A stretch of DNA of 64,000 nucleotides from Kappaphycus alvarezii (Eukaryota; Rhodophyta; Florideophyceae; Gigartinales; Solieriaceae), in contig NADL03000464.1 of the NCBI GenBank assembly GCA_002205965.3, forward strand, positions 124,001 to 188,000, given 5' to 3'. Every line of letters begins with the position of its first letter. The stretch's first letter is position 1. A program made the position numbers and the translations under genes. A model generated the notes under the pieces. That model had not been told where the DNA came from. It did no database searches and saw only the letters and a list, made by a program, of their open reading frames with translations. Positions 1 to 14,235 of this stretch are shown here, piece after piece.

Positions 1-625
1 TGGGCATGGCACTGGTTCCCTAACTGACCCTGATATTTATTTATGGCTACCAAGCTAATAGAGTAACACGTGTCCTAACTACTGAGCTCTCTTAACTAGC
101 TAACTTTAACTTAGTATTTATCCTTGGCACGAGTTGCCACTGCTAGAATAAGCAGGCACCGAAAGTACCAACGACTTCACCAGTTTTTGGTTTTGGCTCT
201 AGTTGTTGCTCCTGCAACTTGCATTCCCTTTTTACTAAGGCGCCGCGACTGCAGCTATAGTAGCTACTAACCCTTCGGCCCCCGCCCGCCAGCTTGGCTT
301 TTCAGCCTGTTGTTTATTTCAGGTTTATACCTTTTTGGTGTGTTTGTCCCCGTAGGGAGGGCGTGTATCCCTCGCGTCTTGTTGCGTCGAGGACGTGTAT
401 CGGTTGCTCTTGCCCATTTGCGGTCTTTTACGCAGAAGGCGTATTAACCATGTTCCACTTTTCCCCTTGCTTCTTACAAGCCTCTACCACCTGAGTTCTC
501 ACAACTCTTGAGCTACTACCCTGCAGAGGGAATAAAGAGAAAGCGGCGGCAAACACAGTGTAGTCATTGCTTTACGCAATAGGGAGCGTAACCTTTCTAG
601 GTCCAGTTCGGTGCACTGCACTACA
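1..625 (+). repeat. 5' LTR of the chromovirus (first 137 bases missing)
   Basis: This matches 13610-14235 almost base for base. It ends in GCACTACA at 625, directly before the primer-binding region. A polyadenylation-type AATAAA lies at 531-536. It holds short stem-loops such as GTTGC-tcct-GCAAC (205-218) and ATTGC-tttac-GCAAT (566-580). The 66-codon open frame at 294-494 is present in both LTRs but has no recognisable protein character. Confidence 0.95.
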
Positions 626-630
626 AATTT

Positions 631-648
631 TGGTCTCGCGACCTAGAA
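631..648 (+). other. Probable primer-binding site
   Basis: The sequence just inside the 5' LTR starts TGGTCTCGCGACC. TGG pairs with the CCA end of a tRNA, as expected for minus-strand priming. The 5-base gap after the LTR is a little longer than usual. I cannot assign the tRNA from sequence alone. Confidence 0.55.
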
Positions 649-696
649 ACGAAAAGGTCATTACGACCTAGAAACGAAAAGGTCTTGACGACCTAC
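640..696 (+). repeat. Tandem 20-bp stem-loop unit in the leader
   Basis: The 20-base unit GACCTAGAAACGAAAAGGTC occurs at 640-659 and 665-684, with a partial third copy from 690. Each full copy begins GACC and ends GGTC, so it can form a 4-bp stem. The position between primer site and gag is where packaging signals usually lie; that role is inferred. Confidence 0.7.
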
Positions 697-797
697 ACAA
701 TATTGTTTTCTTTTTGGAAAGTTACTTGTTTTTCTTAACCACAACAATTGTTAAGAGGTTTAATACCCACTTTGCTTCAGATCGAATATCTTCGACA

Positions 798-10800: not shown

Positions 10801-11156
10801 ATGGTTCTACAACGGCAAGGGTGTGTACACCCAGTGTTTTGTTAACACTAGACTAGTGGAGAGCCAGAGCTCGATGTTGCGTACGCGATCCATTGAGGAT
10901 CTTGGGAGTCGATGAATGAAGCATTTTGGCCGCGCGCGTAACTACACTATGAACTATCCACGCTACGAATGCTACACTAAGGCAACTCGGATTGTCAAAC
11001 GCAAAAGATTTAGTCAAAGTCTAACGAAACAAGTTTACCTGTGAAAGGTAGTTCAGTGCCTATGAGAGGCGACGAGACCTACTGATCAACACGAGAAGTG
11101 CCCATGAGGGGCAAGGACGAACATAAAAGTTCCCATCACGGGAACCGACAAACTAT
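7824..11156. other. Non-coding stretch of the chromovirus, dense with short stem-loops
   Basis: No open frame here has protein character. The striking content is closely spaced perfect inverted repeats with 5-7 bp arms and 3-5 base loops. Examples: GAACG-tttg-CGTTC (8239-8252), CAACT-ttaag-AGTTG (8608-8622), ACAAT-cgaaa-ATTGT (8911-8925), AACTC-ataac-GAGTT (8942-8956), TGTCA-tgtaa-TGACA (9056-9070), GAGCT-cgcaa-AGCTC (9081-9095), CACTC-ccaaa-GAGTG (9151-9165), GGACTT-aacaa-AAGTCC (9182-9198), AATACA-ctg-TGTATT (9257-9271), CATTCG-gtgat-CGAATG (9325-9341), GGTTCTT-tca-AAGAACC (9959-9975) and GAGTTT-tttt-AAACTC (10613-10628). Function is unknown. Confidence 0.75.
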
Positions 11157-13337
11157 TTAAGTGCTATTAGAGCGCGACTGCGGTTTATAGATGCCCGACG
11201 AGCGGGACTGACGCAAGCTTTGAAAATTGTTCTTCAAGAGTATCTTCAGCTCTGCGAGCGGAACCTCAAGTTCCTCGTCAGTCATGCCCATGTCCTTCAA
11301 CAAGGAACGAACTGTGTCCTCTTCGTACTTGGCTCCCGCCGAGCTCCCCGTCCCGCCTGATGCGGACCCCGTCATCTCGATATCACCATCGCCCTTTTCC
11401 TTGCCGGCTCCGGCTTCCGTCTCGTCGACTTCCACAAAGTCATCGTCATCTCCCGTAGTGGGATCTTTCGGAGGAACCACTGCTGGAGTGGGTGGAGTAA
11501 TTTCGCCCTCAAGGGCAGTTGCAGCTGTGATAGGCCCAATTTGTGGGTTTGAAATAGACTGATGAACGGCCACAGTAGCCGCATCTTCGGGAGGAGCACG
11601 ACGCCCCTCCCTAGCCTCCAAGGCTGTCACACGAACACCCTTCCAAGGGTTTTAGAACACAAAATAACCCGCATCCGGATGCACGCGGCCGGGCGAGAAG
11701 CTGTGGCGTTGACCGCCCTTTGATTTAGAACTCCATTGGGGAGACACTTCGTTTGGATCGTTCCAGTCGATCTCCTCGATCTCTCCCAGGAGCCTTTTTA
11801 GCTCTTCGTCGTTTTCTTTTCCTCCTAAGGGAATAATCATGTCCAACTCCTTCATCCAGGAGATGAGTCTGTTTGGTAAGAACCACAGTCGCCATGTGTC
11901 ATACACATCCCAAAGGAGAAAAGCTCCATGCTTAACACAACATTCAGTTATGAATTGACACCAGATCCCATGGTCGGGATCGCGGAAGAAAGACCCAAAG
12001 TAGGTCAAGCTAGGGCCCAACTCGGACCAAAAGCCCTGACAAACCTCAACACGAGGCCACCAAGCAGGGTTCGCGTTGAATCGACGTCCAAGATGTTGCG
12101 AGCCGATATGCTCGGCCTCCTTTTGTTGATAAGGGATCATATATCCCGTTTCGTTACGCAAACGGCGTTCCAATAGCACTGTGTTTCTGAAGAATGGTTT
12201 GTGATCGTGCTTTTCTAAGCGAAAGTGGATCGGAATGATCGCTGTTTGCCAAAAAATGGCATCTTGATGCACGCCGCGAATACCGGGCCAACGTTGATCG
12301 ATTACTTCGATCGGACGCAATGTCTCGGTGGCGAGGCTCAAGACATTATCGCCCCAAAGGCGCTCTCCATTCGTACGATGCGACCAAGTATCCGCGCCTA
12401 ACGCGCGAGGAATAGGAATGCCTCCAGGCAAAAGTGAAAGACGTTCCAACACCGCACGAATGAAACGGCGACGCGCCCGCACAACCGGCTCTGTATGAGA
12501 GATTTTGAGTGCCTCAACAGGCACAGCAATATAATCGAGCCAATCTGGAGTGGTAATCGCCTCGAAGGGGATGTTATTGGGTAAGAAACCACTGTGATCA
12601 GTGTATTCCTGTTGAATACGCGTACGATTCATGACCCCTTTTGGGCAGAAATAAGGCGCATAGACATGTGCATCTAAATAGTAACGTGTGTTACTTTGCG
12701 CGATGCCCTCTGCAGAGGAATATGGCCAATTTTCGCGAACGTCAATCGTTTCGTCGACATCATGGGCTTCTGAAGCCATTTTGTTTTTGTTCTCTTTAGA
12801 AGAGCCTTCGTTATCGTAAAACCGGTGTTGGTTGTGAAAAGATCCTTTTGGAGGATGAGCTCGGTGACCACGAGAGTGGAAGTGTGCAATAAAGCGATGA
12901 CGCTCGAGGTTAAATGCCGATTTCAAATCGGATTGTGTACGCCTAGTCGTTCCCACTGAACGAATTACAGTAAGGTCGCTGACCGCCCGAAATTTTGAAT
13001 TACCCCTTTTGAGTATCTTTTCTTTTTGGCGCGAAACGTCGCGATCAGAGGAAGGCACCCGATGTGCTACGACGACGGAGGAGGATGGCTCCTCAGTAAT
13101 TGAGACAGGCGTTGACGCCAAGGAAATTTCAACACCTTTAGTAGGTGACTTGTCTTTGCCCAAACCTCCGACAGGTGAAGTAGTAGTTTACCTAGAGGCC
13201 TTGTTAGTAGGATTGATATCCTTGCTTGAAGTGGAATGATCGCTTTTGAAAGCAGGAGCCGATGACCGCCCCTAGTTCTGACTTATGGAGGCAATTTGGC
13301 ACAAAGTATCAAACATTTCTTGCCCAGGCACGTCCAT
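11157..13337 (-). pseudogene. Antisense gene inside the chromovirus, unknown family, three in-frame stops
   Basis: One minus-strand frame runs 726 codons from the ATG at 13337-13335 (MDVPGQEMFDTLC) to TAA at 11159-11157. It is interrupted only by TAG at codon 22 (13274-13272), TAA at codon 50 (13190-13188) and TAA at codon 562 (11654-11652). The N-terminal 170 residues are basic and Ser-rich. A Trp/Phe-rich, globular-looking core spans about residues 190-530 (for example WWPRVEVCQGFW, GAFLLWDVYDTWRLWFLP). The tail is acidic (GDDDDFVEVDE) and ends in a possible helix. I recognise no known domain. Antisense extra genes at this place are known from some plant Tat-lineage elements such as Grande, but those lack a chromodomain. 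A DNA- or RNA-binding, envelope-like or regulatory role would all be speculation. Confidence 0.75.
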
Positions 13338-13460
13338 AATTTTTTTTGAAAACAATGAAAACTCCTGTCGGCAGGTAGAATGATTTGAGGTGGCGAGCAC
13401 GCCACACGATGAACGTTAGCTGTCGTTCAGCTTAGATTTTATTCCCGAGCCTGCGCGCTC

Positions 13461-13472
13461 AGAAGGGAGAGA
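13461..13472 (+). other. Polypurine tract of the chromovirus
   Basis: AGAAGGGAGAGA directly precedes the TGTAGTGC start of the 3' LTR. This is the place and composition expected for the plus-strand primer. Confidence 0.85.
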
Positions 13473-14235
13473 TGTAGTGCAATAGCACTTTAGTCTGAAT
13501 TGACGGTCATAACCGTAATTTTAGTACTCGATTTTCGAGCCACATTACATGGCGCGTGCCATCCAGCATGTTAACACTCTTACAGTGCCTTTACAGTAGT
13601 CGCCCCTATTGGGCATGGCACTGGTCCCCTAACTGACCCTGATATTTATTTATGGCTAACAAGCTAATAGAATGACACGTGTCCTAACTAGTGAGCTCGC
13701 CTAACTAGCTAACTTTAACTTAGTATTTATCCTTGGCACGAGTTGCCACTGCTAGAATAAACAGGCACCGAAAGTACCAACGACTTCACCAGTTTTTGGT
13801 TTTGGCTCTATTTGTTGCTCCTGCAACTTGCGTTCCATTTTTACTAAGGCGCCGCGACTGCAGCTATAGTAGCTACTAACCCCTTCGGCCCCCGCCCGCC
13901 AGCTTGGCTTTTCAGCCTGTTGTTTATTTCAGGTTTATACCTTTTTGGTGTGTTTGTCCCCGTAGGGAGGGCGTGTATCCCTCGCGTCTTGTTGCGTCGA
14001 GGACGTGTATCGGTTGCTCTTGCCCATTTGCGGTCTTTTACGCAGAAGGCGTATTAACCATGTTCCACTTTTCCCCTTGCTTCTTACAAGCCTCTACCAC
14101 CTGAGTTCTCACAACTCTTGAGCTACTACCCTGCAGAGGGAATAAAGAGAAAGCGGCGGCAAACACAGTGTAGTCATTGCTTTACGCAATAGGGAGCGTA
14201 ACCTTTCTAGGCCCAGTTCGGTGCATTGCACTACA
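13473..14235 (+). repeat. 3' LTR of the chromovirus (complete, 763 bp)
   Basis: It starts TGTAGTGCAATAGCAC and ends GTGCATTGCACTACA, so the ends are inverted repeats. The start also folds as AGTGC-aata-GCACT. The portion from 13610 repeats 1-625. AATAAA at 14141-14146 is a candidate polyadenylation signal. The right flank begins TTTAG, but the left flank needed to test the target duplication is outside the window. Confidence 0.95.

Follow-up and report, generated by a model that had tools for sequence, protein, structure and literature searches.

A phased array of minimal hairpins along the internal region of a red algal Ty3/gypsy-type retrotransposon and its possible role in packaging

The genome of satellite tobacco mosaic virus has been modelled as a row of stem-loops along about 1 kb, one per pair of shell subunits, and the genome-scale ordered RNA structure (GORS) of RNA viruses is a diffuse structure. 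Work on dispersed packaging signals in MS2, satellite tobacco necrosis virus (STNV) and parechovirus describes many small stem-loops along the genome, lying within coding sequence, with a loop or stem motif in common that is read by the coat protein (PMC6281560). Here we analyzed a stretch of 64,000 nucleotides (the window) from the red alga Kappaphycus alvarezii (assembly GCA_002205965.3, contig NADL03000464.1, positions 124,001 to 188,000 of the forward strand). Its positions 1-14235 are a long terminal repeat (LTR) retrotransposon of Ty3/gypsy type, as assigned from the LTRs and the order of the pol domains. The internal region of this element is a selected, phased array of hairpins with a period of about 25 nt, a finding about which we have very little doubt. 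What the array does is a separate matter, and the reading that we prefer, a scaffold for packaging the genomic RNA, is put forward tentatively.

Number, size and register of the hairpins

A hairpin was scored wherever two perfectly complementary arms of 5 bp or more enclosed a loop of 3-6 nt (3-5 where stated), with dinucleotide shuffles as the null. The element (1-14235) contains 282 of them, compared with 51.9 ± 6.9 in 20 shuffles, and the remaining 49.7 kb of the window contain 277, compared with 197.2 ± 15.8. Counted in 1-kb bins, the first 14 kb carry 14-25 hairpins each and the next 50 bins 0-15, with fewer than nine in 43 of the 50. Two host open reading frames (ORFs), at 20507-22387 and 41870-42895, have 13 and 5 hairpins versus 7.3 and 3.4 in shuffles. 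A preliminary description of the sequence had pointed out nine hairpins in 8900-9345 and five in coding sequence. All of these are present, at most one base from where they had been placed (the nine span 8910-9341, the first being 8910-8926 and the last 9325-9341), and the accompanying chance figure of 1.3 per 445 bases is about right; our own count for 8900-9345 is 11 versus 1.7 in 100 shuffles. Its proposal that the element is denser in hairpins than shuffled sequence or host genes agrees with our counts, which give an excess in the element and none in four host ORFs.

The excess follows a size rule. The internal region (626-13609) contains 254 hairpins whose loops measure 3-5 nt (arms of 5 bp or more) versus 35.6 in 40 shuffles, while those with loops of 6-8 nt number 34 versus 30.3. 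A scan of loop lengths from 0 to 40 nt against 20 first-order Markov sequences confined the excess to loops of 3, 4 and 5 nt with arms of 4-6 bp, loops of 6 nt or more being near chance: five-base loops occur 75 times with 5-bp arms (8 expected) and 27 times with 6-bp arms (2 expected), and six-base loops with 5-bp arms 12 times (9 expected). Loops of 1-2 nt are also raised and are largely the same sites scored with one extra inner pair. Arms of exactly 4 bp are in excess too, and longer arms occur at about the frequency given by chance extension of a 5-bp stem. The loops have no strict motif in common: there are 61 of 3 nt, 82 of 4 nt and 89 of 5 nt, and no sequence is used more than five times, with loose biases only. 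The unit of the array has 4-6 Watson-Crick pairs and a loop of 3-5 nt, with linkers mostly of 5-16 nt.

The array runs through coding and non-coding sequence. The non-coding stretch 3' of pol (7344-10600, + strand) contains 78 perfect 5-bp helices with loops of 3-5 nt versus 9.4 in shuffles. For coding sequence we used 300 synonymous-codon shuffles per ORF piece (loops 3-5). The two gag-side frames contain 19 (978-2036) and 16 (2215-3090) hairpins versus 4.6 and 3.2, the three pieces of pol 35 (3357-4859), 24 (4860-5807) and 23 (5808-7343) versus 4.8, 3.9 and 5.8, and an antisense ORF 23 versus 5.9. The z-scores of these six pieces are 7.5-14.6, compared with -0.7, 1.7, 0.4 and 0.5 for the four host ORFs. 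Because synonymous shuffling within the ORF pieces removes the excess, codon content does not explain it. Stem codons encode the commonest residue of the protein family in 91 of 141 cases and other codons in 329 of 559, which argues that the array comes without cost to the protein. Folding energies in 120-nt windows of the + strand have mean z-scores of -1.49 in leader and gag, -1.44 in pol, -1.36 in the non-coding stretch, -0.82 in the antisense part, -0.84 in the LTRs and -0.11 in the rest of the window; the minus strand scores about equally low.

The hairpins also keep a register. Centre-to-centre distances between perfect hairpins in 1-13609 fall 40 times at 24-28 nt, three times at 36-40 nt, 41 times at 48-52 nt and nine times at 60-64 nt, and a 25-nt period has a z-score of 6.0 against random placement with exclusion. 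By region the z-score is 4.4 in 1-3350, 4.1 in the non-coding stretch and 3.4 (at 26 nt) in the antisense part. Each of the four internal regions, among them pol, shows autocorrelation peaks at about 25 and 50 nt in local pair probabilities calculated with ViennaRNA, which take in weak hairpins; the pooled + strand values are 0.168, 0.106 and 0.055 at 25, 50 and 75 nt. In the rest of the window a 50-nt peak is missing. A mixture fit, in which the pairs are not independent, estimates the period as 24.5 ± 0.25 nt and a periodogram as 26.0 nt, hence our figure of about 25 nt. A chain model with 406 of about 513 slots occupied had used the period as a prior and was not relied on. The preliminary claim that hairpins fill the element from end to end therefore applies to gag, pol, the non-coding stretch and the antisense ORF and hardly holds for the LTRs (1-625 and 13610-14235), which have six perfect hairpins each in about 625 nt and no 25-nt autocorrelation on the + strand.

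Conservation among copies and distribution across families

We compared the non-coding reference 8500-10000 with its 12 matches in the alga's own genome, the window itself included, of which six match at 92-100% and six at 68-77%. Copy L034, identical over 1498 nt, was left out of the divergence counts, which leaves ten copies scored; indels were excluded from divergence, and 13 of the 38 reference hairpins were unscorable in L035. In all ten copies the bases that form stems in the window's perfect hairpins have changed less than the remainder: 0.6 versus 4.2% (L035), 5.1 versus 6.9% (L036), 3.8 versus 7.8% (L037), 2.5 versus 8.4% (L038), 14.4 versus 21.6% (L039), 16.2 versus 23.9% (L040), 13.3 versus 31.6% (L041), 14.1 versus 26.5% (L042), 16.6 versus 30.9% (L043) and 18.7 versus 31.0% (L044). 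Loop divergence (35-44%) is above that of the remainder in L039, L041, L043 and L044, but in none of the other six; loops thus diverge as fast as linkers, or faster, in four of the six diverged copies. L039, L040 and L042 have 5.0-7.5 hairpins per kb and appear to be decayed copies. L035 (the C725 copy) has many single-base deletions and few substitutions over 1.5 kb, through either sequencing error or an odd decay.

Decoy hairpins with loops of 8-12 nt, scored in six copies, showed no consistent stem effect (stems 3.6, 3.6, 7.1, 28.9, 16.7 and 25.0% versus remainder 3.1, 6.7, 6.8, 28.2, 28.4 and 29.6%, with 12 scorable bases in the last two), and neither did chance hairpins of array-less families in eight comparisons. 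Fast loops alone are not special, because loops are also raised in the array-less pair L033/L011 (10/58 and 9/61). The preliminary description had named paired substitutions in an alignment of family members as support for selection. In a nine-copy alignment (A5), which leaves out L040 and L042, true partners are Watson-Crick paired in 65% of cells versus 24-29% for slid partners, a contrast that is in part built into the comparison. Where both partners have changed, 26 of 65 cells still form a Watson-Crick pair; the six slid controls together give 105 of 430, but a single one of them attains 26 of 69. With cells sharing ancestry as well, this test is supporting only.

The C479 copy, from a diverged lineage, has an array of its own over a 10-kb stretch, with 11-19 hairpins per kb in nine of the ten kb and 7 in the last. 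Here too the window's stems diverge less than other sites, by 9.0 versus 13.1% in pol, 14.8 versus 27.2% in the non-coding stretch and 10.0 versus 16.7% in the antisense part. In the aligned stretches, 53 C479 hairpins lie more than 5 nt from any window hairpin, and 24 of these are 20-30 nt from the nearest one (10.2 expected). None lies at 15-20 nt (6.7 expected) and one at 40-50 nt (4.0 expected), while eight lie at 50-70 nt (4.6), seven at 30-40 nt (6.1), nine at 5-10 nt (10.4) and four at 10-15 nt (9.5). It follows from these distances that the register tends to pass down while single slots gain or lose perfect pairing. The synonymous shuffles, the register of about 25 nt and the conserved stems of the sister copies together bear out the early suggestion of a structural rule on top of the codons.

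The array is confined to certain families. From the alga's own assembly (336 Mb, 884 contigs) we took reverse transcriptase (RT) loci out of the best-scored 150 of 10,224 candidates. Eighteen of 20 further 10-kb loci have 2.9-5.4 hairpins per kb and no array, and the other two, L020 and L027, have 20.1 and 19.5; the density is 2.0-3.2 in five of eight shorter loci and 6.3-6.6 in the remaining three. L020, L027 and L031 (about 98% alike, GC content 0.55) form a second array family, in which loops of 4 nt outnumber those of 3 and these those of 5, a milder excess extends to loops of 6-8 nt and the period is about 26.5 nt. Its stems are conserved in one of three comparisons, as is expected only if the copies differ in decay (stems versus other sites: 4/1881 versus 93/5380 from L031 to L020, and 20/2059 versus 75/5165 from L020 to L031). 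L032 is intermediate, with 11.7 hairpins per kb, broad loops and no clear period, and L030 and L033 (3.4 and 5.0 per kb) have no array. Beyond its own family, the window's element had DNA matches in L011, L020, L027 and L030-L033 only, among the loci compared. Between families the window's stems are not conserved in any of four comparisons and the same hairpin centre is used in 1/19, 3/40, 6/44 and 2/9 cases; the arrays have therefore been built or rebuilt separately. Positions 872-1342 of L031, a 475-nt stretch missing there from its sister L020, match the L021 repeats 1736-2210 and 8265-8739 (6.5 kb apart) at 93.9% and are probably a solo LTR of another family inserted in L031.

A packaging scaffold and its alternatives

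We read the array as minimal stem-loops kept across the internal region by selection on pairing and spacing. These may form in the single-stranded genomic RNA and act as a string of beads, offering one docking or compaction unit per about 25 nt to the nucleocapsid part of Gag while the RNA of about 13.6 kb is packed into a virus-like particle. The array would be read by shape and spacing, with loop sequence of little weight. We favour a scaffold read by shape because the stem-loops are equal-sized and poor in motifs, keep a fixed spacing, lie between the LTRs and are indifferent to coding. The candidate partner is the nucleocapsid part of Gag, and a zinc-knuckle motif can be seen by eye in the gag region. 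Such a packaging role has, in our estimate, a little less than an even chance, and we give the whole statement, selected array and scaffold for the genomic RNA together, the same standing. A protein-binding array, raised in the preliminary description, is unlikely in a sequence-specific form given loops that lack a strict motif and diverge fast. As to the molecule, two points favour RNA: it is what such elements pack, and in the near-perfect stems of the window copy G-U is commoner than A-C (109 versus 80, a difference reached in none of 100 shuffles).

Several results weigh against this reading. The whole G-U difference comes from the coding part of the window copy (63 versus 36); the non-coding part gives 30 versus 30, the stem changes in sister copies give 81 versus 83, and G-U is not in excess over A-C in the second family. 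The wobble test is insensitive, because MS2, a known RNA genome, gives 28 versus 32. When only synonymous third positions are counted, pol retains a weak stem effect (23/181 versus 94/570) and the antisense ORF none (10/61 versus 51/287); the shuffles are the main support for selection in coding sequence. By perfect hairpins the register is weak in pol taken by itself (z 1.5), and a z-score of 2.0 at 25 nt is found in the rest of the window. Within the second family, L020 and L027 differ without a stem effect (26/2390 versus 85/6434). Finally, the array must be dispensable for packaging in general, because the close sister families L030 and L033 of the same genome do without it. Two candidate signs of the strand were rejected: the two loop-side positions of the 5' arm are pyrimidines in 327 of 464 cases in three regions versus 189 of 372 in the rest of the window, and this bias, like a T-N-A bias of the loops, is symmetric under reverse complement.

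The hairpins might instead serve as a shield, since stem-loops every 25 nt or so leave no long single strand to host small RNAs, Argonaute or nucleases. That the array runs alike through coding, non-coding and antisense parts and does not conserve its loop sequences would suit this role, but shielding needs a maximal gap and not a register, leaves the scarcity of distances of 36-40 nt and the inherited slots unexplained, and the linkers stay open; we consider it improbable. Slightly less probable still is an action in single-stranded complementary DNA (cDNA) during reverse transcription, where the hairpins might protect or compact it or aid strand transfer. The loop cut-off of the array resembles the behaviour of DNA hairpins, whose stability is greatest with loops of about 3-5 nt and lower with 6, and most tests found little or no preference for G-U over A-C. 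The G-U excess in the coding part of the window copy speaks against it, as do the loop preference, which differs between families and so does not simply follow DNA energetics, and the LTRs, which are also present in cDNA and lack the register.

A functionless mutational origin, in which RT folds back, switches template and rewrites one arm to match the other, had also been proposed in the preliminary description. The strict Watson-Crick pairing, the restriction to certain families and the double stem changes that keep pairing are compatible with it. Unbiased rewriting would, however, make stems change as fast as linkers, and they are slower in all ten copies; protein changes are not in excess in stem codons, and neither the register nor the inherited slots are predicted. 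It fits poorly and we give it very little weight. Chance, composition or codon bias do supply a background (51.9 hairpins in shuffles of the element, and 277 versus 197 in the rest of the window), yet as an explanation of the array they are refuted by the dinucleotide and synonymous shuffles and by the conservation of stems beside decoy controls, and we see practically no room for them.

A more specific form of the packaging scaffold is speculative and, in our view, rather unlikely. The genome of this red algal clade, a grouping that rests on DNA and protein similarity, might act as a ruler. At 24.5-26 nt per slot, the 13,610 nt from one LTR to the other would give some 520-555 equal hairpin slots, each for one shell subunit, and genome length would be matched to particle size by counting. 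The Ty3 particle has T=9 symmetry and 540 subunits. If so, two families with different positions and loop sizes would exemplify an evolvable, motif-free assembly code. The packaging scaffold, if true, would give a retroelement with a second, purely structural code, selected and periodic, over 13 kb of coding and non-coding sequence, and a natural setting in which to ask whether shape and spacing suffice for shell proteins to read RNA. Array-bearing and array-less families in one genome allow particle packing, RNA fate and small-RNA targeting to be compared.

Element architecture and comparison with known systems

The 5' LTR (1-625, + strand) has TG...CA ends and lies outside the register, and the 3' LTR (13610-14235, + strand) is its repeat. 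Within 1-625 the pair differs by 13 substitutions plus a single 1-base indel, and the six perfect hairpins of the 3' LTR are free of these differences. The array crosses a gag-region open frame (978-2036, + strand; in-frame stop at 975 just upstream) and is present in the next frame (2215-3090, + strand), where a CCHC zinc-knuckle motif is recognizable by eye and Pfam zf-CCHC scores below the cut-off (E 0.28). The pol frame (3357-7343, + strand) is in three pieces, with in-frame stops at 4857 and 5805, and covers RT, RNase H and integrase in the Pfam order RVT_1, RT_RNaseH, Integrase_H2C2 and rve. A search with the integrase piece gave 74 protein matches, whose named sources are Chondrus crispus (best 64% identity), one Agarophyton chilense and one spirochaete metagenome-assembled genome (MAG); by these matches the nearest named protein relatives of the element are red algal. 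The spirochaete protein (P0042, an integrase labelled Sphaerochaetaceae), a close relative of the element at 55% identity, is probably algal contamination of that MAG. No DNA relatives were confirmed in the prokaryote and viral collections, and Rfam gave no matches.

The antisense ORF (11652-13187, - strand; 511 aa stop to stop), which the array also crosses, has no Pfam match. The protein search yielded a single homologue, P0079, at 41% identity over 66%, and a 497-aa stretch is 75.7% identical in the C479 copy; the predicted fold of the antisense protein, with a mean predicted local distance difference test (pLDDT) score of 33.9 from two sequences, was not used. Just 3' of the 5' LTR, at 640-700, lies a near-exact 25-nt tandem repeat (GACCTAGAAACGAAAAGGTC plus five bases) with the period of the array, which may be its seed or a coincidence. 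Outside the element, overlapping palindromes made of GTACAGTA/TACTGTAC units occur at 14990-15021 and 49143-49183. The host ORFs at 20507-22387 and 41870-42895 are intronless and encode, respectively, an alpha/beta hydrolase whose N-terminal part is long and a protein with a GRAM domain.

The element shares with Ty3/gypsy elements (Metaviridae) the LTRs and the order of reverse transcriptase, RNase H and integrase, has a candidate zinc knuckle like theirs (seen by eye, below the Pfam cut-off), and differs from them in the phased array over its whole internal region, a 4-kb non-coding stretch and the antisense ORF. We know of no Ty3/gypsy member with such a hairpin array, and a phased, genome-length array in an LTR element was not found in the accessible literature on structure, packaging, retrotransposons and red algae, which includes few subscription journals. 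As with dispersed packaging signals, many stem-loops beyond chance are embedded in coding sequence, whereas the loops here lack a strict motif and diverge fast; counted in this way, MS2 shows an excess that is broader (36 versus 11.9 for loops of 3-6 nt and arms of at least 5 bp) and no visible period. As in GORS, folding energy lies below that of shuffled sequence along the genome, but the signal sits in hairpins of 13-17 nt with a register, and the minus strand scores about as low. Satellite tobacco mosaic virus likewise has consecutive short stem-loops along its genome, with longer stems over 1 kb as compared with 5-bp stems over 13 kb in this retrotransposon. Many stem-loops along one genome are already known in RNA viruses.

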